From contig NZ_JAHVKE010000001.1 in NCBI RefSeq assembly GCF_019800885.1, positions 868,001 through 932,000 of the forward strand: DNA of 64,000 nt, given 5' to 3'. The notes below the pieces were generated by a model. That model did not search any database. It had not been told where the DNA came from and was given only the letters and a program-made list of their open reading frames with translations. This DNA comes from Maritalea mobilis. GTDB lineage: Bacteria; Pseudomonadota; Alphaproteobacteria; Rhodobacterales; Rhodobacteraceae. Of the stretch, positions 13,043-28,361 are shown piece by piece (within the stretch, counting starts at the first letter, position 1; each line of letters starts with the position of its first letter). The position numbers were made by a program, and so were the translations under genes.

Positions 13043-14551
13043 TCATGCGGCCGTCCCTTCGATGCCCGAGATCGCCTGGATAAGGCTGTCCTCGGTCACC
13101 TCCGTTGCGCAGAACTCGCGCATGATACGGCCATGGTACATGGCGACGATCCGGTCGGAGACATGTAGCACCTCGGGCATTTCCGACGATATCACGATCA
13201 CGGCGTAACCCTGTTTCGCCAAGCCGCGCAGCAGATTGTGGATCTCGGATTTCGACCCGACATCGATACCGCGCGTCGGTTCGTCCACGATCAGGACCTC
13301 GGGCTGCATCGACAGCCATTTGCCAATCACGATCTTTTGCTGGTTGCCACCCGACAGGTTTCCGACGGCCGTTTTCCAGCTGGGGCTTTTGATGGATAGG
13401 CGGTCTCGATACTGATCGTAGATCGAAATCTCTGCACCATCGGACACGAAAGGGCCGGCTGTCAGGTCGCCAACTTGCGGCAACGTCATGTTATCACGGC
13501 AATTCATGCCAAGCACGAGGCCTTGCTCTTTCCGGCTTTCCGGGACGAGGGAAATACCCTTCGCTATCGCATCGATCGGCGAGGTAATCTTGACCGCCTC
13601 CCCCTTCAGATAGATCTGCCCCGAGGTCGGTTTGCGCAAGCCGAACAGGGTTTCGGCAATCTCGGTGCGGCCTGCCCCGACCAGGCCGTAGAATCCCAGC
13701 ACTTCGCCCTCGCGGACTTCGAAAGTGGCGTCCTCAAAAAGATGCCCGCAAGACAGGTTCTCGACCCGCAGGGCGACCGGCCCAAGCTCCACCTGCTCGA
13801 CATTGCGGCTGATGTCGAGAGACCGCCCGATCATCATCTGCGTGATCTCGTCCTCGTTCGTTTCAGCGGTGTTGAGTGTGCCGCGATACTCCCCATCTCG
13901 CAGAACCGAGATGCGGTCCGTCATCTTGAAGATCTCTTCCATGCGATGGGAGATGTAGATGATCCCCACGCCCTGTGCCTTCAGACCCTCGATCACGTCG
14001 AACAAAACAACCTTCTCGGCATCGGTCAGCGATGCCGTGGGCTCGTCGAAGATCACCGCCTTCGCGTCCACGGTGAGGGCGCGGGCGATCTCAACCATCT
14101 GCTGGTTTGCAATGGAAAGGTCTCCAACCAAGGTCCGGGCATTGAAGCCCACCTTGAGCTTTTCGAGGATGGCGTCGGTTCGGGAATAAAGCGTCGCCCA
14201 GTCAACACGACCGAAGCTTTTGCGGGGCAACTCCCCAAGATAAATATTCTCGGCGACCGACAATTCCTCTGCAAGGCTGAGTTCCTGGTGAATGAACATC
14301 ACGCCATTGGCCTTGGCCTCGAGCGGGCCGCGCATCTCGGTTTCGCGTTCCTCGATGAAGATCTTTCCGGCGTCAGGCTGATAGATCCCGCCCAGAACCT
14401 TCATCAAAGTGGACTTGCCTGCGCCGTTTTCCCCCATGAGGGCATGAACCTCACCCGGAAGAACCGAGAAGCTGACGCCATCGAGGGCGCGAACGCCGGG
14501 AAAGGTCTTCACGATACCTTCGAGACGAAGTGCCGGTGTGTGATCGGTCAT
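13043..14551 (-). CDS. Sugar ABC transporter ATP-binding protein (RbsA-like, two nucleotide-binding domains)
   Basis: A 502-residue double ATPase. The first half has Walker A GENGAGKST, signature LSIANQQMVEIARAL and Walker B AVIFDEPTASL. The second half has the degenerate Walker A GLVGAGRTE typical of the RbsA/MglA/XylG family, signature LSGGNQQKIVIGKWL and Walker B VLIVDEPTRGIDVG. It energises import through the two adjacent permeases. ATG 14551 overlaps the stop of the upstream permease gene as ATGA. It is the last gene of the leftward operon of the divergent catabolic locus. The substrate is probably a sugar or polyol, but not determined. Confidence 0.94.
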   Translation of the reverse strand: MTDHTPALRLEGIVKTFPGVRALDGVSFSVLPGEVHALMGENGAGKSTLMKVLGGIYQPDAGKIFIEERETEMRGPLEAKANGVMFIHQELSLAEELSVAENIYLGELPRKSFGRVDWATLYSRTDAILEKLKVGFNARTLVGDLSIANQQMVEIARALTVDAKAVIFDEPTASLTDAEKVVLFDVIEGLKAQGVGIIYISHRMEEIFKMTDRISVLRDGEYRGTLNTAETNEDEITQMMIGRSLDISRNVEQVELGPVALRVENLSCGHLFEDATFEVREGEVLGFYGLVGAGRTEIAETLFGLRKPTSGQIYLKGEAVKITSPIDAIAKGISLVPESRKEQGLVLGMNCRDNMTLPQVGDLTAGPFVSDGAEISIYDQYRDRLSIKSPSWKTAVGNLSGGNQQKIVIGKWLSMQPEVLIVDEPTRGIDVGSKSEIHNLLRGLAKQGYAVIVISSEMPEVLHVSDRIVAMYHGRIMREFCATEVTEDSLIQAISGIEGTAA

Positions 14552-15549
14552 ACTTTCAACTCCTCTGCGCCCTTGCGATTGAGCTGCCGGTCCAGGAACA
14601 GGACCGCGATCAGGATGGTGCCGATGACAAGGTTCACGGTCTCGGTGTCCGCGCCGATATGGCCAAGGCCCTTGCGCAAAAGTTGGATGGCGATCACACC
14701 GCCAAGCGTGCCGATGATAGACCCGCGACCGCCGGCCAGCTTGGTGCCGCCCAAGACGACGGCGGTGATGGCCCACAGTTCGAACAGCATTCCGTCATTT
14801 GGATTTACCGACCCGCTGCCCGAGTAGAACGCCACGGCCGACAGGGCGGCGAGGAAGCCGATCAACACGAAGTTCACGACGATATGCGGCCCGACGCGGA
14901 TACCGGCATTCACGGCGGCCTCGCGGTTGTCGCCAATGGCATAGGCATTGCGCCCATGCACCGTGCGGGTCATCATCAGCCAGACGATCAGGACAACGGC
15001 GATGAAAACCAAGGCAGGCGTTTGGAGGCCCAGTATGTCCGCCTCGGCGAAATCGACCATCGTCCAGTTCAGGTGATAGGTCGGGTTCTCGCCGTTATAC
15101 ATGAAGACAAGCCCGCGATAGCCCAACATCGCACCCAGCGTGACGATGAAGGCATCGACCCCGGTCTTCCAAACGATCACGCCGTTGATCAGGCCCAGAA
15201 TTGCCCCCGTGAACAACGCGAACAGCCAGGCGAGCGGGATCGCGGCGTCGCCCATTGCCTCCATGAATGGCCAATTCATCGAGTCGAGCATGACAATCCC
15301 GGCCAGCGCATAAGTCGCGCCCACGGAGAGATCGATATTGCCGTTGATCATGACCACCGTCATGCCGATGGCAATAATGCCGATCGGGGCCGACTGCTTG
15401 AGCAACAACAGCATGTTGTCGAGGTCCATGAAGGCGCTGTCACTGAGCGACCACCAGCGACCGGCCACCTCGAAGAAAACCAGCTGGATGACGATAAAGG
15501 CCCAGATCGCACCGTTCTTGATCAGCCGCTTGAGGGTCTCGTTCTGCAT
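14548..15549 (-). CDS. Sugar ABC transporter permease (RbsC-like), second copy
   Basis: A 333-residue RbsC/BPD_transp_2-family permease with about ten hydrophobic segments. Family hallmarks are DLSVGATYALAGIV near residue 92, GLINGVIVWKTGVDAFIVTLG and AVVLGGTKLAGGRGSIIGTLGG near the end. GAGGAGGG precedes ATG 15549. It is 12 bp downstream of another permease of the same family and overlaps the ATPase gene by 4 bp. The two permeases presumably form a heterodimer, as in other systems with paired RbsC-type genes. Confidence 0.93.
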   Translation of the reverse strand: MQNETLKRLIKNGAIWAFIVIQLVFFEVAGRWWSLSDSAFMDLDNMLLLLKQSAPIGIIAIGMTVVMINGNIDLSVGATYALAGIVMLDSMNWPFMEAMGDAAIPLAWLFALFTGAILGLINGVIVWKTGVDAFIVTLGAMLGYRGLVFMYNGENPTYHLNWTMVDFAEADILGLQTPALVFIAVVLIVWLMMTRTVHGRNAYAIGDNREAAVNAGIRVGPHIVVNFVLIGFLAALSAVAFYSGSGSVNPNDGMLFELWAITAVVLGGTKLAGGRGSIIGTLGGVIAIQLLRKGLGHIGADTETVNLVIGTILIAVLFLDRQLNRKGAEELKV

Positions 15550-15561
15550 GTTCTGCCCTCC

Positions 15562-16542
15562 TCAGGCGATCGGCGACCAAAGCTTGCCGCGCTTGGTGGC
15601 GATATCGAGCCAGACGGCCAGGATGATGATGATCCAGGTGACGACGAACTGGACGTAAAACTCGAGCCCGGCCAGCAGCAGTCCATTTTGGATAAATCCG
15701 AGGATGAGCACCCCGATCACCGTCTTGAAGATCGTGCCCGATCCGCCCAGCAACGACGCCCCACCAAGAATGACGGCGGCCAGAACCTCCAGTTCCATGC
15801 CTTGGCCAACGGTGTTCTGGGCCCCCATGGTGCGGCTGGCCTGGATCAGGCCGGCCGTCGCCACGCAAAAGGCTGAGATAAGGTAAGTCATGAAAACCAC
15901 GCGGGCGCGCGGTATGCCCGAAAACGTCGCCGCCGTCCCGTTGCCCCCGACCGCATAGACCTTGCGGCCGAACGGGGTCTTGGCGAGCACGATGCCGAGG
16001 AACGCCGCAAGCAAAAGGAAAATGAGCACCGGAACGGGGATGCCCAAGGCTTCTCCCCGGCCAAAGACATCGAACCAGGTTTCATTCTGGTTGGCGATAT
16101 CCATGTTCTGACCGCCCGAGTAGGTCAGCGTCAGGCCATGGATGGCCGACAGCATCCCCAGCGTCACGATCAAAGAATTCAACCTGAGATACCCGATCAG
16201 GAACCCGTTGATCGCCCCAAGGCAAAGGGTCATCGCAAACATCGCAGGGATGGCAAGGGCCGGCCCGAAAGCGGGGTTTTCGTGCAGGTCCAGCACCACG
16301 ATGGCCGAAAAGGACAGCATGGACCCAACCGACAGGTCGAGATTGCCGCCGATCACGACAAAGGTAACCCCCAGGGCCATGATCCCGAGGATTGCCGAAG
16401 ACCGGATCACACCGAACACATTATCGATATCGATAAAGCGTGGGTTCCAGAGCGTGAAGCTCACCATGAACAGAATAAAGGCGACAAGAATGCCCTGTCG
16501 CGCCAACACACTGCCAAGCGATTTCATAGCCTGATCGGCCAT
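15562..16542 (-). CDS. Sugar ABC transporter permease (RbsC-like), first copy
   Basis: A 326-residue permease of the RbsC family, with the conserved segments GGNLDLSVGSMLSFSAIVVL (residues 65-84), AINGFLIGYLRLNSLIVTLG and AVILGGASLLGGSGTIFKTV. Length and about ten membrane segments are normal. GGGAGG precedes ATG 16542. It lies between a short-chain dehydrogenase gene (77-bp gap) and the second permease (12-bp gap). Confidence 0.93.
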   Translation of the reverse strand: MADQAMKSLGSVLARQGILVAFILFMVSFTLWNPRFIDIDNVFGVIRSSAILGIMALGVTFVVIGGNLDLSVGSMLSFSAIVVLDLHENPAFGPALAIPAMFAMTLCLGAINGFLIGYLRLNSLIVTLGMLSAIHGLTLTYSGGQNMDIANQNETWFDVFGRGEALGIPVPVLIFLLLAAFLGIVLAKTPFGRKVYAVGGNGTAATFSGIPRARVVFMTYLISAFCVATAGLIQASRTMGAQNTVGQGMELEVLAAVILGGASLLGGSGTIFKTVIGVLILGFIQNGLLLAGLEFYVQFVVTWIIIILAVWLDIATKRGKLWSPIA

Positions 16543-16619
16543 TTAGATCCTCCCTTTGGGGCGCGCATTGCCGCCCCTCCCACTAGATCCCTCGCCCTTC
16601 CCACGGCGGGGGATTGATA

Positions 16620-17426
16620 TCAGACCAAGGTCATGCCTCCGTCGATCATCACGATTTGCCCGGTCATGTAGTCGCTTGCGCGCGACGCAAGGAACGTCGT
16701 GGTTCCCGTGATGTCTTCAGGCCGCGCGACACGCCCTTTCAGGATATCGGCCGAGAATTCCTCCATGGCCTGACCGGGGCGCTCCGCCGCACCGATGGCC
16801 ATCAGGTCCTGATCGACCTGCTCCCACATCTCGGTCGCGACAACGCCCGGGGCAAATCCGGTGACCGTGATATCATGCTTGGCCAGATCGCGTGCCGCCG
16901 ATTGCGTCAGACTGACCACGGCCCATTTCGATGCACAATAGGGCGCGACATTGTCAAACCCCTGACGAGACGCGATCGAGGCGGTGTTCACGATCTTTCC
17001 CCCGCCCCCTTGGGCGATCATCTGTCGGGCAGCCTCCTGGATACCGATCAGACACCCAAGGCCATTCACGTCCATGATCAGATGCCAATTGTCCTCGGTC
17101 ACATCGAGGAAATTCATCGGTTTGTTCACGCCGGCATTGTTGAACATGACGTCCAACCTGCCAAAGCTTGCCACGGTTGCCTCCACCATGGCGCGGAATT
17201 GCGCCCGGTCCCGGACATCGACACCCGCCGACATTACCGAACCGTCGTCTACGCCCGCGCGTGCCTTATTCGTTTCGGCCACTTCGGCCGCCAGACCGGC
17301 GTTGAGATCGGCGAAACAGACCTTGGCCCCGTCCGCGAGCAGTGCCTCACCGATGGCGCGACCGATGCCCCTGGCTGCGCCGGTTACAATGCATACACGA
17401 CCTTCGACACCACGAGGTTCGACCAC
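16620..17426 (-). CDS. Short-chain dehydrogenase/reductase (polyol or butanediol-dehydrogenase-like)
   Basis: A 268-residue classical SDR. It has the cofactor motif TGAARGIG, FNNAGVNKP, catalytic Ser in NTASIASR, and YCASK with the Tyr/Lys pair. The C-terminal part (FAPGVVATEMWEQVD... then SDYMTGQIVMIDGGM) resembles sorbitol and 2,3-butanediol dehydrogenases. The start is GTG 17426, preceded by AGGGGGCGCACC; a longer frame upstream (to 17486) has no SDR similarity. It sits between the binding-protein gene and the permeases, so it probably oxidises the imported compound with NAD+. It is related to the SDR in the rightward arm. Confidence 0.88.
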   Translation of the reverse strand: MVEPRGVEGRVCIVTGAARGIGRAIGEALLADGAKVCFADLNAGLAAEVAETNKARAGVDDGSVMSAGVDVRDRAQFRAMVEATVASFGRLDVMFNNAGVNKPMNFLDVTEDNWHLIMDVNGLGCLIGIQEAARQMIAQGGGGKIVNTASIASRQGFDNVAPYCASKWAVVSLTQSAARDLAKHDITVTGFAPGVVATEMWEQVDQDLMAIGAAERPGQAMEEFSADILKGRVARPEDITGTTTFLASRASDYMTGQIVMIDGGMTLV

Positions 17427-17462
17427 GGTGCGCCCCCTGAAACTTGACTGTTCTTGAAAAAA

Positions 17463-17493
17463 TGCGGGAGCGACCAGGCTGGCCACCCCCGCA
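17463..17493 (-). promoter_or_regulatory. Intercistronic stem-loop after the binding-protein gene
   Basis: TGCGGG (17463-17468) pairs with CCCGCA (17488-17493), with room for inner pairing. It lies just downstream of the binding-protein stop codon on the minus strand, before the dehydrogenase start. Such hairpins often stabilise the upstream binding-protein mRNA relative to permease genes; that role is inferred. Confidence 0.4.
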
Positions 17494-17504
17494 CAGGGAG
17501 GATC

Positions 17505-18464
17505 TTAGAAAACCGGGCGATCGAATTCGCCCATGTTCTCTTGCGTGATCTTCGGCGTGTCGAAATAGTTCAGGAACGGCACGTCCTCGCCTGCAAGAAT
17601 ATCCAGCGCGGTCTGCAGCGCCGCCTCGGCGTCATCGACCGGCGACTGGTAGATCGAGCCCCAGTATTCGCCGCGCTCCATGGCATCGTAGCCAACCGCG
17701 AAATTCGTGGCACCGACGAAGGTGATGTCTTCGGCTCGACCTGCCGCCAATGCAGCGTTCAAGGCACCAACGCCCATGTTGTCGTCGCCCGAATAGACAC
17801 CGTCGATGTCGTCGTATTGGACGAGGAACGCTTCCATCACGCGCTGCGCATCTTCCCGGTTCCAGTTACCGGGCTGGCTTTCCATCAGCGTGACGTTCGG
17901 GCAGACCTCGGGCAGACGCTGTTCGAACCCCTCGGCGCGCTCGATCGCGGTGGTATAACCCGGCTGGCCGGTGATCTGTACAATCTGCGCTTCGTCCTGA
18001 ATCCCCATGTCGGTGAACCGTTCGCACATAATCTCGGCGGCGCGGGCACCCTGCGTGATGTTGTCCGGCCCCGAGAAGGAGCGCACGAAGTCGAACCCGT
18101 CTTCGGCGATATTCGAGTTGGTGATGATGACGGGGATACCCGCCTGATAGGCCTCGCGCACCGCGGGAATGACAGCCTGACCATTGGTCGGCCAAATGAT
18201 CATGGCGTCGACTTCTTGCTGGATCAGGTCCTGGATCTGCGCGATCTGGCGCGCCACGTCGCCGCCGGCGTCCAGCACGACAACCTCGACATCGGGGTTG
18301 GCCTCGGCTGCAGCGATGAAGGCCTGCTCATAGGTCGTCTGGTAGCTGTCGACGCCCACGTTGTTCTGCGTGATACCGATCGTGATGGTCTGTGCTGCTA
18401 CTGCGCCACCCATGGCGACGAGTGCAGTGGAACACGCAAGCGATAGCTTGGTCATTCGGGTCAT
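17505..18464 (-). CDS. Sugar ABC transporter substrate-binding protein (Peripla_BP_4, RbsB-like)
   Basis: A 319-residue periplasmic binding protein. The leader MTRMTKLSLACSTALVAMGG... ends VAAQ, a Sec signal with cleavage near residue 24. The mature part shows the type I periplasmic fold of RbsB-like proteins: DVARQIAQIQDLIQQEVDAM, GIPVIITNSN, ITGQPGYTTAIERAEGFEQ, YSGDDNMGVGALNA and the late YQSPVDDAEAAL. ATG 18464 follows GGAGGAAGAAT. It is the first gene of the leftward operon, whose promoter region is shared with the regulator on the other strand. The ligand is unknown; sugars, polyols and related compounds are usual. Confidence 0.92.
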   Translation of the reverse strand: MTRMTKLSLACSTALVAMGGAVAAQTITIGITQNNVGVDSYQTTYEQAFIAAAEANPDVEVVVLDAGGDVARQIAQIQDLIQQEVDAMIIWPTNGQAVIPAVREAYQAGIPVIITNSNIAEDGFDFVRSFSGPDNITQGARAAEIMCERFTDMGIQDEAQIVQITGQPGYTTAIERAEGFEQRLPEVCPNVTLMESQPGNWNREDAQRVMEAFLVQYDDIDGVYSGDDNMGVGALNAALAAGRAEDITFVGATNFAVGYDAMERGEYWGSIYQSPVDDAEAALQTALDILAGEDVPFLNYFDTPKITQENMGEFDRPVF

Positions 18465-18579
18465 ATTCTTCCTCCCAGTTTTCTAACGGATTGCCGCTGT
18501 CCTCCCAGCCCGGGAATCGCCCGGTGCAATCTGCGTTGTATCGAGCGTGTTTTCAGTCGCAATCAAACGACCCATTTTT

Positions 18580-18613
18580 ATCCATTTTGGATGATTTTTT
18601 ATCCGAATTGGAT
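18580..18613. promoter_or_regulatory. Twin inverted repeats ATCC-N5-GGAT in the divergent control region
   Basis: ATCCATTTTGGAT (18580-18592) and ATCCGAATTGGAT (18601-18613) are two 13-bp inverted repeats with identical arms and 5-bp spacers. Their centres are exactly 21 bp apart, two helical turns, so bound dimers would face the same side of the DNA. They lie in an AT-rich stretch between the binding-protein gene and the regulator gene. They are the obvious candidate operators for the winged-helix/solute-binding regulator encoded next door. Confidence 0.7.
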
Positions 18614-18666
18614 ATCTTCGGAGGGCCGCAGCTACTCTCAATTTGAACAATTCAGGGGGACATCCA

Positions 18667-20484
18667 GTGAAACGCCCACCGATATGCACCGCACCGTCAG
18701 GCGCCAAGGGGACCATGCTCAGTCAAGCTGCCAACGCCATTCAAAATGGACAAGGTCCGGCCTCGAGCCGATCCTTTTCGTCCAATGGCGTGGCCGATGC
18801 CGAACTCGCGCGGGTCATCGGGTTCTTGACGGACCTGACCGTTGAACTGGACACCTCGCTCGACCCTACAACGCCGAACCCGCATTTGAACATGCTGCTG
18901 CACCTTTTGCGAGGGCATGTGGAAGGGCGGTTGGTATCCGCGTCCTCGATGGCGTCCGCATCCGGAGTTCCCTATGCAACCGCGATGCGGAAGCTGGCCG
19001 AGATCCAGTCTGCTGGCTATGTCGAACAAAGACCCAGAACGAAAACTGGTCGCAGTTTTTCCCTTCACCCCAGTGCAGACCTGCTGGACCACTTCAGTCA
19101 GCTGGCAAGCCGCGTCGGGCGTCTCGCTCGCGAGGCCTTCGATGCCGAGGATCATGCCGGTGACTACTTCTACGGCGGTTCCTACGTGCCAGGCCAAGCG
19201 GCAATCGCGCCGCCCAACGCGCTGTTGTCGCCGCTCAAGCTGGCCGGAGGGCTTCGAATCCTCGTTCATGGCGATCCGACCTTCATGGTCATGGATACAC
19301 TCAAGCGCCAGTTCGAACAGATCGTCGGAACCGACATTCATCAACGCGCCTTCTCCATTGACCGTTTGCGCGAGGAAACCCTGCGCAATGCCGAACGAAA
19401 GAAAAGTGCTTATGACCTGATCGCGGTCGACCTGCCCTGGATCGGGGAGTTTGTGTCCAAGGGTGTTCTCCGGCCGCTTCCCGAGATCATGGATGTCGAT
19501 CGGCTGGACCCGAGCGATTTCCACACGGCGGGATGGCGTGCAACCCATTGGGGGGGCGTACCTTATGGTGTGCCAAGCCAGACCACACCGGAATTGATGT
19601 TCTATCGAAAGGACTGGTTCGCGCGCGAGGGTCTGGCGCCGCCAGCCACTCATGACGACGTGATCGCCGCCGCGCGCCATTTCCACGATCCGCGCAATGG
19701 TCGGTATGGGGTCGCCTGGAATGCTGCACGCGGCACAGCGCTCGGGCACACCTTCATGATGACAAGCGCGGCCTTTGGGCAGCCCATCATCGAACTGCCC
19801 GAAGTCGCAGGCGGGTTCGACGCAAGCGACCTTGCCGGCGGCCATTACAGGGCACGGATAGATACGCCGCGCACCCGCGACGCCGCCGAATACCTGATGG
19901 ACCTGATGCAGTTCTCTCCACCCGACATCCTGTCGATGTCGTGGTACGAACGCGTGCGCCCCTTCGCCGGGGGCAAGGTCGCGATGGCTTACGGGTACAC
20001 GCTGCTGGCCCCGTATTTCGAACTGGACGAAACCTGTCCGGCATTTGGCAACACAGGATACCTGCCACACCCGCACGGACCCGACGGCGCCCCGATTGCA
20101 CCTGTGGGCGGCTATGCGCTGTGCATCCCGGCAAACCTGAGTGAGGAACGTGTCGATGATGCGGTCGAGGCGCTTGTCGCCTTCACGTCTCCATCGGCGC
20201 AGAAACTCTACATCCAGAATGGCAGCCGAACAGCGCCGCGCTACTCCGTTGGCGCCGACCCCGAAGTGCGACGCCTGTCGCCGATTTTCGAACTGGTGGA
20301 CCAGATGTCGTGGCGCGACGAGCTGCAATTCTGGCCGCGCCCGCCGATCCCGCAGATTTCCGACATCATCAACCTTTGCGGCATGGAATTGCACGACATG
20401 CTGCGCGGCATCGTTGCGCCGGAGGAGGCGCTTCGTCGCCTGCAGGCGCAGGCAGAGGAAATCCTTGAAAGATCAGTCCAATAG
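18667..20484 (+). CDS. Winged-helix transcriptional regulator fused to a MalE-like solute-binding domain
   Basis: A 605-residue protein with an unusual architecture. Residues about 75-125 form a winged helix (SASSMASASGVPYATAMRKL is the helix-turn-helix, then a basic wing EQRPRTKTGRSF). Residues about 194-590 match a family 1 extracellular solute-binding protein: GGLRILVHGDP, YDLIAVDLPWIGEFVSKGVL, GGVPYGVPSQTTPELMFYRK, GKVAMAYGYTLLAPYF and a late hinge region VGGYALCIPANL. No signal peptide is present, so the binding domain should act in the cytoplasm as a ligand sensor. Start is GTG 18667 after AGGGGGA; a TTG at 18643 is less likely. The plan recalls SgrR of enterobacteria, which joins a winged helix to a family 5 binding domain, but the domain type differs. 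It is divergent from the ABC operon and heads the catabolic operon, so it probably controls both. Confidence 0.85.
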   Translation: MKRPPICTAPSGAKGTMLSQAANAIQNGQGPASSRSFSSNGVADAELARVIGFLTDLTVELDTSLDPTTPNPHLNMLLHLLRGHVEGRLVSASSMASASGVPYATAMRKLAEIQSAGYVEQRPRTKTGRSFSLHPSADLLDHFSQLASRVGRLAREAFDAEDHAGDYFYGGSYVPGQAAIAPPNALLSPLKLAGGLRILVHGDPTFMVMDTLKRQFEQIVGTDIHQRAFSIDRLREETLRNAERKKSAYDLIAVDLPWIGEFVSKGVLRPLPEIMDVDRLDPSDFHTAGWRATHWGGVPYGVPSQTTPELMFYRKDWFAREGLAPPATHDDVIAAARHFHDPRNGRYGVAWNAARGTALGHTFMMTSAAFGQPIIELPEVAGGFDASDLAGGHYRARIDTPRTRDAAEYLMDLMQFSPPDILSMSWYERVRPFAGGKVAMAYGYTLLAPYFELDETCPAFGNTGYLPHPHGPDGAPIAPVGGYALCIPANLSEERVDDAVEALVAFTSPSAQKLYIQNGSRTAPRYSVGADPEVRRLSPIFELVDQMSWRDELQFWPRPPIPQISDIINLCGMELHDMLRGIVAPEEALRRLQAQAEEILERSVQ

Positions 20485-20494
20485 GGAGGAAACC

Positions 20495-21301
20495 ATGGAC
20501 CCCAATCGCCTGAAGGGAAAGCACATCCTGATCACCGGTGCCGCACGCGGCATGGGTGCCGCCAATGCCGAAGCGTTTGCCGCCCAAGGCGCGAATGTCT
20601 GCCTCGGCGATCTCGACGGGGATGAAGCGCAGGCGATGGCGGACAAGATCAATGCAGCCGGCAACGGCAAGGCGATCGCCGTCAAGATGGACGTGACCAA
20701 GCGCGAGGACAATCGCAACGCGGTCGGCGTCACGGTGGATGCGTTTGGCAGCATCAATGTGGGCCTGTTCAACGCTGGCCTGAACAAACCCCGTTTCTTC
20801 ATGGATATCGATGAAGACAACTGGGACATGATCATGAACGTCAATACCAAGGCGATGTGGCTGGGCATGCAGGAAACCGCCCGGCAGATGATCGCCCAGG
20901 GCCCGCAGGAAAAGCCCTACAAGCTGATCAACGTGGGTTCGATCGCATCGCGCAAGCCCTTGGTGGATGTCACCGTTTATTGCACCTCGAAATACGGCTG
21001 CCTTGCCCTGACCGAATGCGGCGCACTCGGCCTTGCCGAGCACAACATCACCGTCAACGGATACGCGCCCGGCGTGGTCGTCACGCCGCTCTGGGAACAG
21101 CTCGACAAGGATCTCGTCGAAATCGGCTTCAAGGAACGCGAAGGGCAAGCCTACGACGACATCGTCGAGAACAACCTTGTCATCAAGCGCGTGTCCTATC
21201 CCAAGGACATCATCGGAACCGCCTCGTTCCTCGCTTCCGACGACAGCGACTACATGACCGGCCAGATGATCTCCATCGATGGCGGCTGGGTCACGAAGTA
21301 G
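20495..21301 (+). CDS. Short-chain dehydrogenase/reductase, second of the locus
   Basis: A 268-residue SDR with TGAARGMG cofactor motif, catalytic Ser in NVGSIASR, YCTSK, and a C-terminus SDYMTGQMISIDGGW. The usual NNAG motif reads FNAG (LFNAGLNKP), a substitution worth noting. It shares NKP...DEDNW..IM.VN and APGVV.T..WEQ.D.DL with the SDR of the leftward arm, so the two are related and may carry out successive or stereochemically different oxidations of one substrate. ATG 20495 follows GGGAGGAAACC, 10 bp after the regulator stop. Confidence 0.88.
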   Translation: MDPNRLKGKHILITGAARGMGAANAEAFAAQGANVCLGDLDGDEAQAMADKINAAGNGKAIAVKMDVTKREDNRNAVGVTVDAFGSINVGLFNAGLNKPRFFMDIDEDNWDMIMNVNTKAMWLGMQETARQMIAQGPQEKPYKLINVGSIASRKPLVDVTVYCTSKYGCLALTECGALGLAEHNITVNGYAPGVVVTPLWEQLDKDLVEIGFKEREGQAYDDIVENNLVIKRVSYPKDIIGTASFLASDDSDYMTGQMISIDGGWVTK

Positions 21302-21332
21302 ATCGCCGACACCCTGATTTTCCGACCTCAGT

Positions 21333-21352
21333 GGGTGCGCGAGAACGCACCC
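21333..21352 (+). promoter_or_regulatory. Intercistronic hairpin before the M24-fold gene
   Basis: GGGTGCG (21333-21339) pairs perfectly with CGCACCC (21346-21352) around a 6-base loop. It ends immediately before the AAAGGAG ribosome site of the next gene and has no T-tract, so it may be a processing or translation-tuning element rather than a terminator. Confidence 0.45.
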
Positions 21353-21366
21353 GAAAGGAGCTTATG

Positions 21367-22665
21367 ATGTCTCGCGCCTTGATGCCGAACCTTCTGACCC
21401 CGCAAGATCTGGAACCCAATTGGGAATGGCGGGAACGCCTGCCGGCCTGGGGCCATACCTCGGTCGATTTCGAACGCCGCATCGACCATGACCGCCTGCG
21501 CCGTTACCGCCTTGCCCGCACGCGGCAGGCGCTCCAGGCGTCCGAGGCAGGCACGCTGCTTTTGTTCGACGTCAACAATATCCGCTACGTCTCGGCCACC
21601 AAGATCGGCGAGTGGGAACGGGACAAGATGTGCCGGTTCTGCCTGCTGACCGGCGATGACAGCCCCTATGTCTGGGATTTCGGCTCGGCCGCAGTGCATC
21701 ACCAGCGGTACTCCGATTGGCTGGAGCCTGACCACTGCCTCGCCGGAGTGGTCGGCATGCGCGGCACCATCCCGCCCGAGTTCGGGTTGATGAAGAAATA
21801 CGCCAAGGAAATCGCGCGCCTGATCAAGGAGGCCGGGATGGCCGGCATGCCGGTCGGCGTCGACTATGCCGAAACCGCGATGTTCCATGCCTTGCAGGAA
21901 GAAGGGATCAAGGTGGTCGACGGCCAGCAAATCATGCTGTCGGCGCGCGAGATCAAGAACTGGGACGAAATCCAGCTTTTGACCCAAGCGGCCAGCATGG
22001 TCGATGGCGTCTACCACATGATCTACGAAGAGCTGAAACCAGGCGTCCGCGAAAACGACATCGTCGCGCTGTCCAACAAGCTTCTCTACGAGATGGGGTC
22101 GGACGACGTCGAGGCGATCAACGCCATTTCGGGCGAGCGGTGCAACCCGCATCCGCACAACTTCACCGACCGGCTGTTCCGCCCCGGTGACCAGGCGTTC
22201 TTCGACATCCTGCAAAGCTACCAGGGTTATCGGACCTGCTACTATCGGACTTTCAACATCGGCCGTGCCACACCGTCACAGACCGACGCCTATATCCGGG
22301 CGCGCGAGTGGATCGATGCGTCCATCGAAATGATCCGGCCCGGCGTCACCACCGACAAGGTGGCCGAGGTCTGGCCGACGGCCGAAAGCCTGGGTTTCCC
22401 GAACGAAGACGCCGCATTCGGCCTGCAATTCGGCCATGGCCTGGGTTTGGCCCTGCACGAGCGCCCGATCATCAGCCGCGCCGTGTCGCTGGATCACCCG
22501 ATGGAGATCCAGACCGGCATGGTCTTCGCGCTGGAAACCTACTGCCCGGCGAGCGACGGCTATTCCGCCGCCCGGATCGAGGAAGAGGTCGTGGTCACGG
22601 AAACCGGCTGCGAAGTGATCAGCCTCTTCCCGGCTGAAGAACTGCCCATCGCGAACCGCTACTGA
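21367..22665 (+). CDS. M24-fold (pita-bread) protein with one metal ligand replaced
   Basis: A 432-residue protein of the M24 superfamily, which includes aminopeptidases, prolidase, creatinase, ectoine hydrolase and the DMSP lyase DddP. The expected five metal ligands align as Asp280 (FFDILQ), Cys291 (GYRTCYYRTF, where Asp is normal), His357 (FGHGLGLALHERP), Glu390 (FALETY) and Glu405 (ARIEEEV). The Cys at the second Asp position argues against a standard dinuclear peptidase; it may use one metal, or none as in creatinase. The N-terminal domain (DVNNIRYVSATKIGEWERDK) resembles the creatinase-type half and the DddP group. ATG 21367 is chosen over 21364 for better spacing from AAAGGAG. Its place in a dehydrogenase/acetoin-complex operon suggests a C-N, C-S or lyase-type role, not proteolysis. 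Confidence 0.75.
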   Translation: MSRALMPNLLTPQDLEPNWEWRERLPAWGHTSVDFERRIDHDRLRRYRLARTRQALQASEAGTLLLFDVNNIRYVSATKIGEWERDKMCRFCLLTGDDSPYVWDFGSAAVHHQRYSDWLEPDHCLAGVVGMRGTIPPEFGLMKKYAKEIARLIKEAGMAGMPVGVDYAETAMFHALQEEGIKVVDGQQIMLSAREIKNWDEIQLLTQAASMVDGVYHMIYEELKPGVRENDIVALSNKLLYEMGSDDVEAINAISGERCNPHPHNFTDRLFRPGDQAFFDILQSYQGYRTCYYRTFNIGRATPSQTDAYIRAREWIDASIEMIRPGVTTDKVAEVWPTAESLGFPNEDAAFGLQFGHGLGLALHERPIISRAVSLDHPMEIQTGMVFALETYCPASDGYSAARIEEEVVVTETGCEVISLFPAEELPIANRY

Positions 22666-22670
22666 GGCGC

Positions 22671-22688
22671 GGCGGGATAAATCCCGCC
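22671..22688 (+). promoter_or_regulatory. Intercistronic hairpin between M24-fold gene and E1 alpha gene
   Basis: GGCGGGAT and ATCCCGCC form a perfect 8-bp stem around two A residues, just after the stop of the M24-fold gene. No T-tract follows. It could be an mRNA processing or stability element inside the operon. Confidence 0.4.
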
Positions 22689-22752
22689 CTAAGGTGCAAC
22701 GCGCCTGGGACAGGGTTCACCCCGCCGCCCCCGCCCACCCCGGGAGGATCAC

Positions 22753-23730
22753 ATGGCCAAAGCCAAGACGAATACCGAGGACTACCTGCGCATGTATCGC
22801 CAGATGGTTCGCATCCGCACTTTCGAAGACAATGCCAACCAGCTCTACCTGTCGGCCAAAATGCCGGGGCTGACCCACATGTACTCCGGCGAGGAAGCCG
22901 TCGCCGTGGGCATCTGCGAGGCGCTGACCGATGACGACCGCATCACCTCGACCCATCGCGGCCACGGGCATTGCGTCGCCAAGGGGGCCGAGTTCAAGGA
23001 GATGTTCTGCGAGTTGCTCGGAAAGGCCGAGGGCTATTGCCGGGGCAAGGGCGGGTCGATGCATATCGCCGACCAGAGCCACGGGAACCTTGGCGCGAAT
23101 GCCATCGTCGGCGGGTCCATGGGGATCGCCACAGGCTCGGCCCTGCGCGCCAAGCTGATGGGAAAGGATGACGTCACGGTCTGTTTCTTTGGCGACGGCG
23201 CGACGGCGCAGGGCCTGATGTACGAGGTCATGAACATGGCAGCCCTTTGGAACCTGCCGGTGATCTACGCCTGCGAGAACAACGGCTATTCGGAATACAC
23301 CAAGACCGAGGAAATCGCCGCAGGTTCGATCACGGCCCGCGCCGAGGCGTTCGGCATCGAGGCGCATACGGTCGACGGGCAGGATGTGCTGGCGGTCAAC
23401 GAGTTGACGCAAAAGCTGGTGGCGCGGGCCCGCAAGGGCGAGGGCCCGTTCTTCATGGAACTGATGACTTACCGCTACCACGGGCACCATGTCGGCGACA
23501 TCAACCGCGAATACTACCGATCGAAGGACGAAGAGAAGGACTGGAAGGACAATCGCGACCCGATCATCCGCTTCCGCGCCTTCCTCGTCAGCGAGGGGAT
23601 CGCGACCGAGGAGGAGATCGAGGCGATGAATGCCGAGATCGAGAAGAACGCGACCGAGGCCGTGGCCTATGCCGAACAGGCCCCCTACCCGCCGGCCAAC
23701 GAGGTCGACATGCACGTGTACGCGGACTGA
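22753..23730 (+). CDS. Thiamine-diphosphate-dependent dehydrogenase E1 alpha subunit (acetoin/pyruvate dehydrogenase type)
   Basis: A 325-residue E1 alpha subunit. The thiamine-diphosphate motif GDG...NN is intact (Gly147-Asp148-Gly149 to Asn176-Asn177), with SGEEAVAVG, THRGHGHCVAKG and RGKGGSMH typical of this family. It pairs with the E1 beta subunit encoded 10 bp downstream. Length and motifs fit both acetoin dehydrogenase (AcoA) and pyruvate dehydrogenase; the operon context with SDRs and an aldehyde dehydrogenase favours cleavage of an acetoin-like ketol to acyl-CoA and aldehyde. ATG 22753 follows GGGAGGATCAC. Confidence 0.9.
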   Translation: MAKAKTNTEDYLRMYRQMVRIRTFEDNANQLYLSAKMPGLTHMYSGEEAVAVGICEALTDDDRITSTHRGHGHCVAKGAEFKEMFCELLGKAEGYCRGKGGSMHIADQSHGNLGANAIVGGSMGIATGSALRAKLMGKDDVTVCFFGDGATAQGLMYEVMNMAALWNLPVIYACENNGYSEYTKTEEIAAGSITARAEAFGIEAHTVDGQDVLAVNELTQKLVARARKGEGPFFMELMTYRYHGHHVGDINREYYRSKDEEKDWKDNRDPIIRFRAFLVSEGIATEEEIEAMNAEIEKNATEAVAYAEQAPYPPANEVDMHVYAD

Positions 23731-23740
23731 GGAGAGACCG

Positions 23741-24736
23741 ATGCGAGAAATCACCCTGTCCCAAGCCGTGAACGAGGCGCTGGCCGAAGAGATGCGCCGC
23801 GACCCGAGCGTCTTCATCCTTGGCGAAGATGTCGCCGAGGCCGGCACCCCCTTCAAGGTTCTGTCCGGTCTTGTCGAAGAATTCGGCACCGACCGCGTTG
23901 TCGACACGCCGATTTCCGAACCCGGATTTGTCGGAATGGCCGTCGGTGCCGCAATGACCGGCGCGCGACCCGTTGTCGACCTGATGTTCGGCGATTTCAT
24001 CTATCTCGTGATGGACCAGCTGTGTAACCAGGCGGCCAAGCAGCATTACATGTCGGGCGGCAAGCTGACGGTGCCGATGGTGCTGCGCACCAACCTCGGT
24101 GCCACGCGCCGTTCGGCCGCGCAACACAGCCAATCGTTGCAGGCGCTTGTGGCGCATATTCCGGGCCTCAAGGTTGCCCTGCCCTCTTCGGCCTACGAGG
24201 CCAAGGGCCTGATGAAGACGGCGATCCGCGACAACAACCCGGTCGTCATCTTCGAAGACAAGCTGATGTACCAGGACAAGGCCCCGGTCCCGGAAGAGGA
24301 ATACCTGATCCCCTTCGGCGAGGCGAACGTGAAACGCGAGGGGCGCGATATTACCCTGATCGCGACCTCCTCGATGGTGCAGGTCGCCGAAAAGGCCGCC
24401 GAGATGCTGGCCAGCGAGGGGATCGACGCCGAGGTGATCGACCCGCGCACCATCGTGCCGCTGGACGAGGCGACGCTTCTCGACAGCGTCAAGAAAACCA
24501 GCCGCGCCATCGTGATCGACGAGGGGCATCAAAGCTATGGCGTCACCGCCGAGATTGCCTCGCGCCTGAATGAAAAGGCGTTCTACCATCTCGATGCACC
24601 CGTTTTGCGGATGGGGGCGATGGATGTGCCGGTGCCGTTTTCCCCGGCGCTCGAGGATCTGACCGTCCCCACGCCCGAGGCGGTCGTCGAAAACGCGCGT
24701 AAACTCTGCGCGGGGGAGATGATCCATGCCGCATGA
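23741..24736 (+). CDS. Thiamine-diphosphate-dependent dehydrogenase E1 beta subunit
   Basis: A 331-residue transketolase-type beta subunit. It shows the family start ITLSQAVNEALAEEMRRDPS, FILGEDV, DTPISEPGFVGMAVGAAMTG, RTNLGATRRSAAQHSQSL and the C-terminal ATSSMVQVAEKAAEMLASEG. It combines with the preceding alpha subunit into an alpha2beta2 E1 that decarboxylates or cleaves its substrate and hands the acyl group to lipoate. ATG 23741 is preceded by GAGGAGAGACCG. Its end overlaps the start of the lipoyl-protein gene by 11 bp, indicating translational coupling. Confidence 0.92.
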   Translation: MREITLSQAVNEALAEEMRRDPSVFILGEDVAEAGTPFKVLSGLVEEFGTDRVVDTPISEPGFVGMAVGAAMTGARPVVDLMFGDFIYLVMDQLCNQAAKQHYMSGGKLTVPMVLRTNLGATRRSAAQHSQSLQALVAHIPGLKVALPSSAYEAKGLMKTAIRDNNPVVIFEDKLMYQDKAPVPEEEYLIPFGEANVKREGRDITLIATSSMVQVAEKAAEMLASEGIDAEVIDPRTIVPLDEATLLDSVKKTSRAIVIDEGHQSYGVTAEIASRLNEKAFYHLDAPVLRMGAMDVPVPFSPALEDLTVPTPEAVVENARKLCAGEMIHAA

Positions 24737-26033
24737 CGTGACCATGCCCCAACTCGGCATGGCGCAGGACGCGGGCAAGATCGTGTCCTGGCTCAAGGCG
24801 CCGGGCGATCCGGTGTCCAAGGGCGATGCCCTGTTCGAGGTCGAAACCGACAAGGCGGTGATGGAGGTCGAGGCCCCCGCAGACGGGTTCCTGACGGGCG
24901 TGTCCTATGGCGAAGGCGATGATGTGCCGGTCGGCAATGTCATCGCGCGCATCTCGGACAGCGCCGAAGATGACCCGGCCCCCGCCCCATCACAGGCCGC
25001 CCCTGCCCCTCCAGTCGCCGCAGATGACACGATCCCGGAGGGCCACCCCGTGACCATGCCGCAGCTTGGCATGGCGCAGGATACCGGCCTGTTGGTCAAT
25101 TGGCTGAAGGCGCCGGGTGATCGGGTCTCGGCTGATGACATCCTGTTTGAGGTCGAAACGGACAAGAGCACCATGGAGGTTGAGGCGGGCCGCGACGGCT
25201 GGCTTGCCGCGACGCTGGCCGAGGCCGGCGAAGAGGTGCCGGTGGGCGATCCGGTGGCGATCATCTCGGGCGACAAACCCGACGCGCCGGTCGCGCGTTC
25301 GGTGAAGGACACCCAATCAAAGCGCGCTGAAACATCGGCCCCACCGCCATCAGTCCCCGAAGCCACCGCCGGGCAGCCAACTGAAACCGTCGCCCCAGCG
25401 GCAGCGTCGCCAAACCCTGGCGGGCGCATCCTGGCCTCGCCCAAGGCGCGGCGTCTCGCGATTGAACAAGGGCTGGACCTCGCCCGCCTGGCCGAGGCTG
25501 GCCATCCACAGCCCTTCCACGTGGCCGATCTGGAGGTGTTGCGCAACATGCCGCGCGCCACGGCGGCACCCGTTGCAACCCCGTCCGAGGCCCCGCGCCG
25601 GCTGACGGCGGTGTGTTCGACCGATGGGCTGTCGGCCTTTGCCGTCTGGGCCGGGGAGACACGGGCGCTCAACCCGGACGCGGTTCTGGCAGGCTTTGCC
25701 GGGACCAGCTTTGGAAGGGCCGAGGCGGTTTGCGTGTCCATCGAGCGCTTTGGCAACCGGCAAACCTACCACGTGCCGGTCGGTCGCAGCCTTAGCGCGG
25801 TTTCGGAAACCGATGACGACCCGGCGCTGATCGTGCGTGACCTGCGGGGAACATCGCTGGCCTCACTGAACATGGGGGCCGAGGCCACGCCGGTCTTGTC
25901 GATCACCGATGACGGGGCTGGCCTTGCCATCACGCTGGAATGCGCAGCCGCACAGCTCGACGCGAGCGCGGCAATCCACCTAGTAACCGAATTCGCAGGC
26001 CGAATGGAGCAGCCGCTCCGCCACCTGCTTTGA
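24726..26033 (+). CDS. E2-like protein with two lipoyl domains, subunit-binding domain and degenerate catalytic domain
   Basis: A 435-residue protein. Two lipoyl domains are plain: residues 1-80 with the lipoylated Lys43 in VETDKAV, and about 104-185 with Lys147 in VETDKST. An Ala/Pro linker leads to a peripheral-subunit-binding domain (ASPKARRLAIEQGLDL..., about 237-275). The remaining 150 residues resemble a shrunken acyltransferase domain, but the catalytic DHRxxDG motif is missing: the equivalent stretch reads ECAAAQLDASAA. So it probably carries acyl groups and scaffolds the complex without catalysing transfer to CoA. The intact catalytic domain is encoded separately at 27486. It overlaps E1 beta by 11 bp. 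Confidence 0.85.
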   Translation: MPHDVTMPQLGMAQDAGKIVSWLKAPGDPVSKGDALFEVETDKAVMEVEAPADGFLTGVSYGEGDDVPVGNVIARISDSAEDDPAPAPSQAAPAPPVAADDTIPEGHPVTMPQLGMAQDTGLLVNWLKAPGDRVSADDILFEVETDKSTMEVEAGRDGWLAATLAEAGEEVPVGDPVAIISGDKPDAPVARSVKDTQSKRAETSAPPPSVPEATAGQPTETVAPAAASPNPGGRILASPKARRLAIEQGLDLARLAEAGHPQPFHVADLEVLRNMPRATAAPVATPSEAPRRLTAVCSTDGLSAFAVWAGETRALNPDAVLAGFAGTSFGRAEAVCVSIERFGNRQTYHVPVGRSLSAVSETDDDPALIVRDLRGTSLASLNMGAEATPVLSITDDGAGLAITLECAAAQLDASAAIHLVTEFAGRMEQPLRHLL

Positions 26034-26050
26034 CAGACGGAGTGCCACGC

Positions 26051-27475
26051 ATGGACTACACCGATCTCTATATCGACGGCGAATGGCGCAAGGGCGCAGA
26101 GCGGTTCGACGTGATCAATCCCGCCACCGAAGAAGTGCTGGCCTCGGTCGCCTCGGCCGATATCGCCGATGCGGATGCGGCCCTCGATGCGGCCGAACGC
26201 GCCATGGCGGACTGGGCCGCACGCAAACCCCGCGAACGTTCCGAGGTTTTGCGCCGCGCGTGGGAGTTGATGACCGAGCGGCTCGATCATTTCGCCCATC
26301 TCATCACGCTGGAAAACGGCAAAGCCGGCGCGGATGCCAAGGGCGAGGCAACCTATGCCGCCGAATTCTTCCGCTGGTTCGCGGAAGAGGCGGTGCGCGC
26401 CGATGGGATGATCACCCATGCCCCCGCCTCCGGCGCGCGCATCGTCGTGCAGCACAAGCCCGCCGGATTGGCCGTGCTGGTCACCCCGTGGAACTACCCC
26501 GCCGCGATGGGCACACGGAAAATCGCCCCGGCCTTGGCTGCAGGCTGCGGCGTCATCATCAAGCCAGCCTCGGAAACGCCGCTGACCATGCTGGCGCTCA
26601 TGCCGCTGCTGGAAGAGGCCGGCGTGCCCAAGGGCCTCGTCAACGTTCTGCCCTCGAAAAAGACCGGCGCGCTTGTCGATCACATGCTGCACGACCCACG
26701 GGTCCGCGTGGTCAGCTTCACCGGCTCGACCGGGGTGGGACGCAAACTGCTGAAATCCGCAGCCGATCAGGTGCTGAAACCGGCAATGGAGCTTGGCGGC
26801 AACGCGCCCGTACTGGTGCTCAAGGACGCCGACATGGACACCGCGATCGAGGGCACCATGCTGGCAAAGATGCGCAATCTGGGCGAGGCCTGCACCGCCG
26901 CGAACCGCATCTACGTTCATGAAGATCTGGCCGAGGCCTTCACCGCCAAGCTGTCCCAGCGCATGTCGGCGCTCAAGGTGGGCGATGGCACCGATCCCTC
27001 GGTCGATGTCGGCCCCTTGGTCAATGCTGATACGCGCGACAAGGTGGCCGAGTTCGTCTCGGATGCGCTGGCGAAAGGGGCCAAGCTGGAATGCGGCGGC
27101 ACGGTGTCGAACGGGCCGGGCTACTTCTACCCGCCGACCGTCATCTCGAACGTGCCAGAGACCGCCGATTGCGTCCAGGACGAGATCTTTGGCCCCGTCG
27201 CGGCGATTCAGACCTTTGCCGATGAAGAGGATGCGATCCGCCGCGCCAATAACACCGAATACGGGCTTGTCGCCTATGTCTTCAGCGACGACTTCAAACG
27301 CGCCATGCAGGTCTGCGAGAAACTGGACTATGGCATGGTTGGCCTGAACCGTGGGCTGGTCAGCGACCCGGCTGCACCTTTCGGGGGCACAAAGCAATCG
27401 GGCCTTGGGCGCGAAGGTGGCCATGAAGGCATGCTGGAGTTCATGGAGACCCAGTACATCTCGGCAGAATGGTGA
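26051..27475 (+). CDS. NAD(P)-dependent aldehyde dehydrogenase (succinate-semialdehyde dehydrogenase-like)
   Basis: A 474-residue aldehyde dehydrogenase. Landmarks are the cofactor-site sequence TPWNYPAAMGTRKIAPALAA, FTGSTGVGRKL, the general base Glu247 in MELGGNAP, and the catalytic Cys281 in GEACTAANR. Length is normal. It most resembles the succinate-semialdehyde/glycolaldehyde group. In this operon it may oxidise the aldehyde released when the thiamine-dependent complex cleaves its ketol substrate. ATG 26051 lies 17 bp after the lipoyl-protein stop; the gene interrupts the two E2-type genes. Confidence 0.93.
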   Translation: MDYTDLYIDGEWRKGAERFDVINPATEEVLASVASADIADADAALDAAERAMADWAARKPRERSEVLRRAWELMTERLDHFAHLITLENGKAGADAKGEATYAAEFFRWFAEEAVRADGMITHAPASGARIVVQHKPAGLAVLVTPWNYPAAMGTRKIAPALAAGCGVIIKPASETPLTMLALMPLLEEAGVPKGLVNVLPSKKTGALVDHMLHDPRVRVVSFTGSTGVGRKLLKSAADQVLKPAMELGGNAPVLVLKDADMDTAIEGTMLAKMRNLGEACTAANRIYVHEDLAEAFTAKLSQRMSALKVGDGTDPSVDVGPLVNADTRDKVAEFVSDALAKGAKLECGGTVSNGPGYFYPPTVISNVPETADCVQDEIFGPVAAIQTFADEEDAIRRANNTEYGLVAYVFSDDFKRAMQVCEKLDYGMVGLNRGLVSDPAAPFGGTKQSGLGREGGHEGMLEFMETQYISAEW

Positions 27476-27485
27476 GGCCGATCCC

Positions 27486-28361
27486 ATGAGCGATATCTCC
27501 GCCAGCCCATCGACCCGCAAGCTTGCCCTGCAAAAGGGTGTCGACCTCGAAGCGCATGCGCGCAAGCTCGGTCGCACGACCATCGGACCGGAGGACCTTG
27601 ACGGCGCGCCGGCCCCTTCAGTGTCCGGAGACACGTCCTATTGGGATGTCGATCACGCCCAATACGGACCCGTGACCGAAGAGCCGATGAGCCGCTTTGC
27701 GCAGGTGGCGGCGCGCAATCTCGCAGCGGCGCAAACGCTTATTCCGGCGGTGACCCATCACGACCGCGCCGATGTTTCGGCTATCGAGGATCTGCGCAGT
27801 GCGTGGAAAGCCGAGGCACGCGCACGGTCGGTGAAACTGACGGCTCTGGCTTTCCACGTTGCCGCTTTGGCGCGCACGCTTCGGGAATTTCCGAGGTTCA
27901 ACGCGTCTCTGTCGGCAGTTGGCGAAAGGCTGATCCTGAAGAACTACGTTCACATCGGCATCGCCGTGGACACGCCGCACGGCCTGATGGTCCCGGTGAT
28001 CCGCGATGCCGATCGCAAGGGTCTGTGGCAGATCTCGACCGAAATCGCAGATTTGGCCGCGCGTGCGCAATCGCGAAAGATCGGCCCGGACGAAATGGGC
28101 GGCGCATCGATGACGATATCGAACCTCGGCGGCATCGGGGGAACGGCCTTTACACCTATCGTCAATCCGCCCGAGGTGGCCATCCTCGGCATCACACGCA
28201 CCGAGACGGTGACGGTTTGGGAGGAAGATGGTCCGCGTCCTGTGCCAATGGTCCCCCTCGACCTGTCCTACGATCATCGCGTGATCAATGGCGCCGATGC
28301 AGCGAAATTCCTTTCGCGATACGCCGATTTCATCGCCGATCCGCGGTTGCTGCTGGTTTGA
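27486..28361 (+). CDS. Dihydrolipoamide acyltransferase (E2) catalytic subunit without lipoyl domain
   Basis: A 291-residue E2 protein. It begins directly with a subunit-binding domain (SPSTRKLALQKGVDLEAHA..., residues 7-40), followed by a complete catalytic domain with the active-site motif DHRVINGADAA (His264); an Asn in place of the second Asp also occurs in some pyruvate-dehydrogenase E2 enzymes. The segment TISNLGGIGGTAFTPIVNPP is also typical. There is no lipoyl domain at all. It must therefore take acyl groups from lipoyl domains on another protein, presumably the double-lipoyl protein encoded at 24726. No E3 gene is present nearby, so E3 is probably shared with central metabolism. Confidence 0.9.
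   Translation: MSDISASPSTRKLALQKGVDLEAHARKLGRTTIGPEDLDGAPAPSVSGDTSYWDVDHAQYGPVTEEPMSRFAQVAARNLAAAQTLIPAVTHHDRADVSAIEDLRSAWKAEARARSVKLTALAFHVAALARTLREFPRFNASLSAVGERLILKNYVHIGIAVDTPHGLMVPVIRDADRKGLWQISTEIADLAARAQSRKIGPDEMGGASMTISNLGGIGGTAFTPIVNPPEVAILGITRTETVTVWEEDGPRPVPMVPLDLSYDHRVINGADAAKFLSRYADFIADPRLLLV

Follow-up and report, generated by a model that had tools for sequence, protein, structure and literature searches.

A predicted regulator of Maritalea mobilis that joins a MarR-like winged helix to a MalE-type solute-binding domain

What does a complete MalE-type solute-binding domain do behind a winged helix, in a protein that shows no visible signal peptide? This question is raised by one reading frame in a 64,000-nucleotide stretch of DNA from Maritalea mobilis, which was analysed as a whole and is referred to here as the window. 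The original prediction was that the frame encodes a regulator that fuses a winged helix to a MalE-like domain, and this was borne out by a Pfam search, AlphaFold models and fold searches, in which the SBP_bac_1 fold and the winged helix were both recovered. The protein and its parts, in window coordinates, are as follows.

18667..20484, plus strand: putative regulator, a fusion of a MarR-like winged helix and SBP_bac_1, 605 aa, GTG start
18781..19146, plus strand: MarR-like winged-helix domain, residues ~39-158, from the AlphaFold models and the fold search
19141..19251, plus strand: low-confidence linker, residues ~159-195, pLDDT <50 at 159-177
19252..20469, plus strand: MalE-type (SBP_bac_1, type II fold) binding domain, residues ~196-601

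The frame is open throughout from 18643 or 18667 to 20484. The GTG at 18667, which gives the 605 aa product, has a good ribosome site upstream, AGGGGGAC; the alternative start is an in-frame TTG at 18643, which gives 613 aa. A model of the full protein that was built with AlphaFold from a 75-row alignment (pLDDT 78.7, pTM 0.69) shows, in this order, a winged helix flanked by two long helices, one on each end, a low-confidence linker and a two-lobed binding protein from residue ~196, with the first 42 residues modelled at low confidence. Judging by the model, the linker is probably flexible. The boundaries that were originally predicted (the first 125 residues and about 194-590) captured both domains but were slightly short, as the winged-helix part extends to ~158 and the binding domain to ~601. 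The same architecture recurs at 28-80% identity, and thus it is neither a chance product nor an assembly join.

In the C-terminal part, PF01547 (SBP_bac_1) matched with an E-value of 7.3e-26 (92.3 bits against a gathering cut-off of 26) and the related SBP_bac_8 profile matched as well; SBP_bac_1 also matched all 20 members of alignment A1, including the window protein, at E <=0.1 (best 7.9e-31). When the model of the binding domain was compared with solved structures, 5iai ranked first (Z 45.2, rmsd 2.4 A, 395 aligned), and the fold is that of the type II binding proteins, as in the solved sugar-binding proteins (Z up to 45). This agrees well with the prediction of a complete family 1 solute-binding domain. 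The entire domain resembles the exported MalE-type proteins 5iai, MalE3 (6dtq) and 4rya (Z 38.6-45.2), which, however, are transporter parts, whereas the fusion has a winged helix ahead of the domain and no visible signal peptide. Among the solved binding domains that were listed, the bound ligands are maltose, trehalose or sulfoquinovose, and sorbitol gives one of the proteins its name. Because the listed solved relatives carry sugars and the adjacent pathway includes two SDR-type dehydrogenases, an imported sugar alcohol or a similar compound is a fair guess for the ligand.

For the N-terminal part, the helix-turn-helix evidence from the sequence alone is weak, since the top-scoring profile of this kind, HTH_IclR (E 0.018), and MarR_2 (E 0.025, 15.2 bits against 27) both fell below their Pfam cut-offs in the window protein; the evidence from the fold is better. 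Among the 20 alignment members, HTH_IclR reached a best E of 3.8e-7, and MarR_2 matched 12 of them at E <=0.1 (best 2.6e-4). AlphaFold placed helices at residues 41-64, 72-85, 92-98 and 103-115 (the recognition helix), wing strands at 119-123 and 131-135 and a long helix at 137-158. Modelled alone as a single chain, the 129 N-terminal residues reached a pLDDT of 88.1, and the top match of this model was the MarR-family protein MepR (5ffx; rmsd 3.9 A, 122 aligned). The further matches were mostly of the MarR type, and the single-chain model has a winged helix with flanking, putative dimerisation helices. On the model, the domain appears to be nearest to MarR-type domains, with a Z of 11.5 that, for a mostly helical part, lies in the range where the fold tool warns of common arrangements; an IclR-type identity may be compatible with the mostly MarR-type listing. 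With the IclR family the fusion shares its best HTH profile but not the effector domain, which had no match at E <=1, and membership of that family was rejected. The MarR repressors, such as MepR and MexR, have short palindromes as operators, and they share the fold of the N-terminal 129 residues, flanking helices included, at Z up to 11.5. However, MarR proteins stop after the winged-helix domain, whereas the fusion adds a binding domain of 400 residues and its Pfam MarR score remains below the cut-off.

The absence of a signal peptide had also been predicted, and it was examined by hydropathy. In residues 1-48, the best 13-residue Kyte-Doolittle mean was 0.60, compared with 1.75 in the neighbouring exported type I binding protein, and no hydrophobic N-terminal segment was seen in the window protein, as had been expected. 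At the N-terminus, 58 of the 75 alignment rows could be scored, none of which reached 1.6; a rougher scan over the whole upstream open frame, in which non-coding codons were included, gave at least 1.9 in 11 of 74 rows. On these sequence features, the product of the ORF is probably a cytosolic protein that consists of a MarR-like winged helix, a linker and a complete MalE-type domain.

The fusion is present as a single full-length copy in its own genome. Matches at E <=0.001 turned up in 28 of 61 related genomes (its own among them) and were for the most part to ordinary binding proteins; ten genomes had near full-length matches, one of them with two. When 295 genomes sampled from the same family were searched with a profile built from 20 members, 52 matched, 49 of them in full; the exceptions were one binding-domain-only match (G509) and two partial ones (G545 and G519). 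In the samples of the class and the phylum, the profile matched 9 of 385 genomes (8 in full) and 6 of 398 (5 in full), respectively, the own genome being part of each of the three taxonomic samples. A scan of species genomes yielded at least 542 matches, counted as stretches of sequence instead of as separate genes; for the locus comparison, the 80 best loci were retained, which belong to the Rhodobacterales and to genera such as Stappia, Martelella, Oricola, Cucumibacter and Roseibium. In plasmid records, near full-length copies numbered 34 and came from hosts that range from Phaeobacter to Rhizobium, Aminobacter and Paraburkholderia; they are labelled 'extracellular solute-binding protein' (26), 'periplasmic component' (one) or hypothetical (one) or are unannotated (six). 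A viral origin was rejected, as no relative was found among the viral contigs scanned. In genome G572 there are three fusion paralogues, of which two (L157 4943-6781 and 12662-14449) lie ~6 kb apart and face each other.

The tree covered 47 binding domains, and all 32 fusions among them form one group, for which, judging by the sequences, a single gain of the winged helix would suffice. The closest to them is L138, which has the binding domain only, a signal-peptide-like start and, by eye, two permease-like genes and an ATPase-like gene as neighbours. Since the nearest relative without a winged helix is an exported transporter protein, a captured transporter binding protein is the likely origin. 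The clade of the fusions and L138 has a support of 100/100, but the branch between L138 and the fusions has weak support (75/66), so that a loss of the winged helix in L138 may be an alternative.

The genes that surround the fusion are as follows.

13043..14554, minus strand: sugar-type ABC ATPase with two ABC_tran stretches
14548..15549, minus strand: second ABC permease, an ORF whose homologues are annotated as ABC permease
15562..16542, minus strand: ABC permease (BPD_transp_2)
16620..17486, minus strand: SDR-family oxidoreductase 1, true start probably internal
17505..18464, minus strand: type I (Peripla_BP_4, RbsB-like) exported binding protein, divergent from the fusion
20495..21301, plus strand: SDR-family oxidoreductase 2, directly 3' of the regulator
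21355..22665, plus strand: M24 (creatinase/DddP-like) enzyme, true start probably some codons internal
22753..28361, plus strand: E1 alpha, E1 beta, lipoyl protein, aldehyde dehydrogenase and an ORF with E2-annotated relatives

The neighbouring ABC system does have a type I, ribose-like binding protein (PF13407, E 5e-51), as had been claimed together with the statement that the sensor is not a copy of it. The second claim also stands, and an origin as a copy of the adjoining transporter's binding protein was rejected because the two belong to different families and fold classes. The gene order proved to be highly conserved: in every one of the 80 best loci, the fusion stands divergent to the genes for the type I binding protein, the two permeases and the ATPase, and the two SDR genes are placed as in the window in 70 (SDR1) and 78 (SDR2) of them, although these counts are not independent, since the loci are related, best-scoring and include near-duplicates (e.g., L043/L085, L092/L093 and L032/L056). 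Of the 67 among the best loci that offered at least 15.6 kb, 66 have the M24 gene 3' of the fusion and 64 have the genes for E1, the lipoyl protein and aldehyde dehydrogenase downstream. The architecture survey in the 295 family genomes points in the same direction: the fusion profile matched 52, the M24 gene was found in 46 and both were found in 44 (Fisher p 1e-41), with the profile alone in eight genomes, including the binding-domain-only G509, and the M24 gene alone in two. This co-occurrence indicates that the fusion belongs to the M24 pathway.

The M24 protein is 80-95% identical to that of the window in 44 of the 45 other matching family genomes, and it distantly resembles the DMSP lyase DddP (118 bits against a cut-off of 600). 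In L142 and L160, the fusion homologue stands in line with what seem to be the same genes, judged by eye from the protein starts, instead of being divergent, and their M24 genes were confirmed by a search; L141, from the 1.4 Mb genome G066, has a similar gene set, again by eye from the protein starts. As an observation in its own right, 13043-18464 and 20495-28361 make up a highly conserved catabolic operon with the M24 enzyme, two SDRs, E1 alpha and beta and an aldehyde dehydrogenase, of which no report was found in the open-access literature. The product of 24726-26033 has the lipoyl domain twice and no match to a catalytic E2 domain; in the annotation of relatives, the aldehyde dehydrogenase gene is followed by a separate E2-like gene (~27482-28361 in the window), so the E2 seems to be split.

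Between the two divergent transcription units lie two operator-like elements.

18579..18593, no strand: operator-like palindrome 1, TATCCATTTTGGATG
18600..18614, no strand: operator-like palindrome 2, TATCCGAATTGGATA, 21 bp from palindrome 1

The divergent promoter region thus contains TRTCCRWWWYGGAYA twice, and the distance of two DNA turns between the centres suggests two dimers on one face. At a threshold of at least 12 of 16 positions, the tandem pattern was found in 73 of 85 upstream regions, a count that leaves out seven diverged loci; of the control windows taken at the same loci, 34 of 1700 reached it. Among the spacings of 14-33 that were tested in these 85 regions, 21 bp stood out as the clear maximum. 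Pairs exactly 21 bp apart, with at least 6 of 8 core positions per site, occurred in 59 of 92 upstream regions compared with a mean of 1.3 in 20 shuffles, and exact single sites occurred in 44 regions compared with 1.4 in 50 shuffles; these motif counts include related and some near-duplicate loci, and the shuffles leave the relatedness in place. Pairs 22 or 43 bp apart were present in 14 and 15 regions (1.2 and 1.6 expected from shuffles), so a third site is likely in that subset. In the 3.67 Mb own genome, the tandem pattern TRTCCRNNNYGGAYA fits one place only, 18579-18614, and the 15-bp palindrome likewise fits one place; the reversed control had no match.

At the majority of the diverged fusion loci that were examined, the motif was missing. 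In the seven diverged plasmid homologues L036-L042, neither a pair nor a 7-of-8 site was found, and L142 and L160, in which the homologue lies inside the operon, have no tandem palindrome. Among 12 further fusions, only L158 reached 12 of 16, at a position relative to the start that is unreliable owing to its stop-to-stop frame, and L159 and L162 were read from misplaced starts and are uninformative. No convincing common palindrome was found among the 15 upstream regions of the diverged subclades. One exception is TATTCAAATTGAATA upstream of the L141 homologue, a symmetrical variant that, in this one case, seems to be the palindrome of the main clade with changes in both half-sites. The link between the motif and the fusion therefore holds for the main clade only.

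We consider it quite probable that the fusion is a cytosolic, one-component local regulator in which MarR-like dimers act on a tandem operator and a captured MalE-type domain senses an imported ligand. The MarR-like N-terminal domains of two subunits would come together to form a dimer that binds TRTCCRWWWYGGAYA, and two such dimers, 21 bp apart on one face of the DNA, would occupy the promoter region that is shared with the divergent ribose-type ABC operon. The MalE-type domain would close on a small sugar- or polyol-like ligand, which may be the compound that is imported by the ABC system or a product that the first dehydrogenase makes from it. Closure would be passed on via the linker so that DNA binding is loosened or, less likely, changed, which would switch on the transporter and the catabolic genes as well as the regulator's own gene. 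The sensor would have been taken from an exported MalE-type transporter protein and not from the adjoining transporter. What the computations show is the predicted folds of the two parts, the missing visible signal peptide, the family, the synteny, the tandem palindrome with its single place in the genome and the exported relative. We infer dimerisation, binding of the palindromes by the fusion, the nature of the ligand and repression instead of activation, and also regulation, ligand binding and the cytosolic location, the last three backed by the conserved operator-like element and the strict synteny. Regarding the class as a whole, we lean, with some reserve, towards the view that an exported MalE-type protein was captured a single time, ceased to be exported and now serves as the intracellular sensor of a MarR-like repressor, which acts as paired dimers on a tandem operator; this sensor would have evolved independently of the transporter's type I protein. 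If this is true, two unrelated binding folds read one nutrient, outside and inside the cell.

A repressor is probably the better reading of the two possible signs of regulation. The sites lie at least 114 bp from the first start codon of the ABC operon and 52-88 bp from the regulator's start, a layout that would also suit an activator that, once it has bound its ligand, recruits RNA polymerase to the divergent promoters from the tandem sites in front of them, and no sigma-70-like promoter hexamers were found in 18440-18720, so that the sign cannot be read from the sequence; nevertheless, MarR-type winged helices are mostly repressors, and we regard activation as a possible but doubtful alternative. 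It could also be asked whether the palindromes are bound by a regulator that is encoded elsewhere, with a different or non-DNA role for the fusion. This would account for the missing motif at the majority of the diverged fusion loci examined, but the pattern is unique to the promoter at 18579-18614, as a local regulator would lead one to expect, no other annotated regulator is shared by all four of the annotated close loci and the N-terminal model is a complete MarR-like domain, which together make this reading unlikely.

The binding domain, for which ligand binding is a prediction, might instead be a dead relic that serves dimerisation or stability, with the signal read elsewhere. However, it is highly conserved in the 75-row alignment, where the mean column identity is 72% over the full length compared with 60% for the winged-helix part alone and long invariant stretches fall within the binding domain, and we judge such a relic to be very unlikely. 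Finally, the label that most of the plasmid copies carry (26 of 34) could indicate a gene-calling artefact, i.e., an ordinary exported binding protein with a mis-set start. Against this, the N-terminal domain is kept in 19 diverse homologues with 28-79% overall identity to the window protein, and it folds with good confidence and has no hydrophobic segment; we rejected the artefact, the probability of which is close to nil.

SgrR, in which an N-terminal HTH is followed by a C-terminal SBP_bac_5 domain, had been named as a precedent with a different binding domain, and it has held up as such: neither SgrR_N nor SBP_bac_5 matched the fusion at E <=1, and membership of the SgrR family was rejected. 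Other regulators with binding-protein-like sensors are set apart by their descriptions, as the sensor of LacI/GalR-type proteins (LacI) has the type I fold, that of LysR-type proteins is a small type II domain of their own and Bacillus Btr joins an AraC-type HTH to another class of binding protein. In the passages of PMC13060122 that describe it, the SgrR homologue DsvR (Vca0578) has an N-terminal HTH and a C-terminal SBP_bac_5 domain, and SgrR represses its own gene. As far as those passages go, SgrR, DsvR and the fusion are alike in being, in the case of the fusion by prediction, cytosolic one-component regulators with a transporter-type binding domain in second place. The fusion, however, has SBP_bac_1 and another N-terminal domain and, unlike SgrR and DsvR, is divergent from a complete ABC and catabolic operon, with a conserved tandem palindrome. 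A survey of binding proteins states, in the part that concerns them, that their domains double as sensor domains of transcriptional regulators (PMC9602780). Among the matches listed, no description of a winged helix combined with SBP_bac_1 was found in the open-access literature. The principle of a regulator with a transporter-type sensor is thus known, and its pairing of a winged helix with SBP_bac_1 seems to be undescribed.

As the plasmid copies that are labelled extracellular look intracellular, the annotation misleads on both transport and regulation, and many such mislabelled putative regulators occur in marine and soil Alphaproteobacteria. The family, for which an exported relative is available as a reference, illustrates how a transport protein may be converted into a sensor. 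A Venus-flytrap sensor with a MarR-like arm and a predicted operator would be a convenient module for sugar biosensors, and the identity of the ligand would indicate the substrate of the conserved catabolic operon.

The diverged plasmid fusions have other surroundings. YciI-family genes lie near all four of L038, L039, L040 and L041, intradiol dioxygenase genes near L038, L039 and L041, maleylacetate reductase genes near L038 and L041 and Gfo/Idh dehydrogenases near L038 and L040. These different neighbour genes hint at a different ligand.
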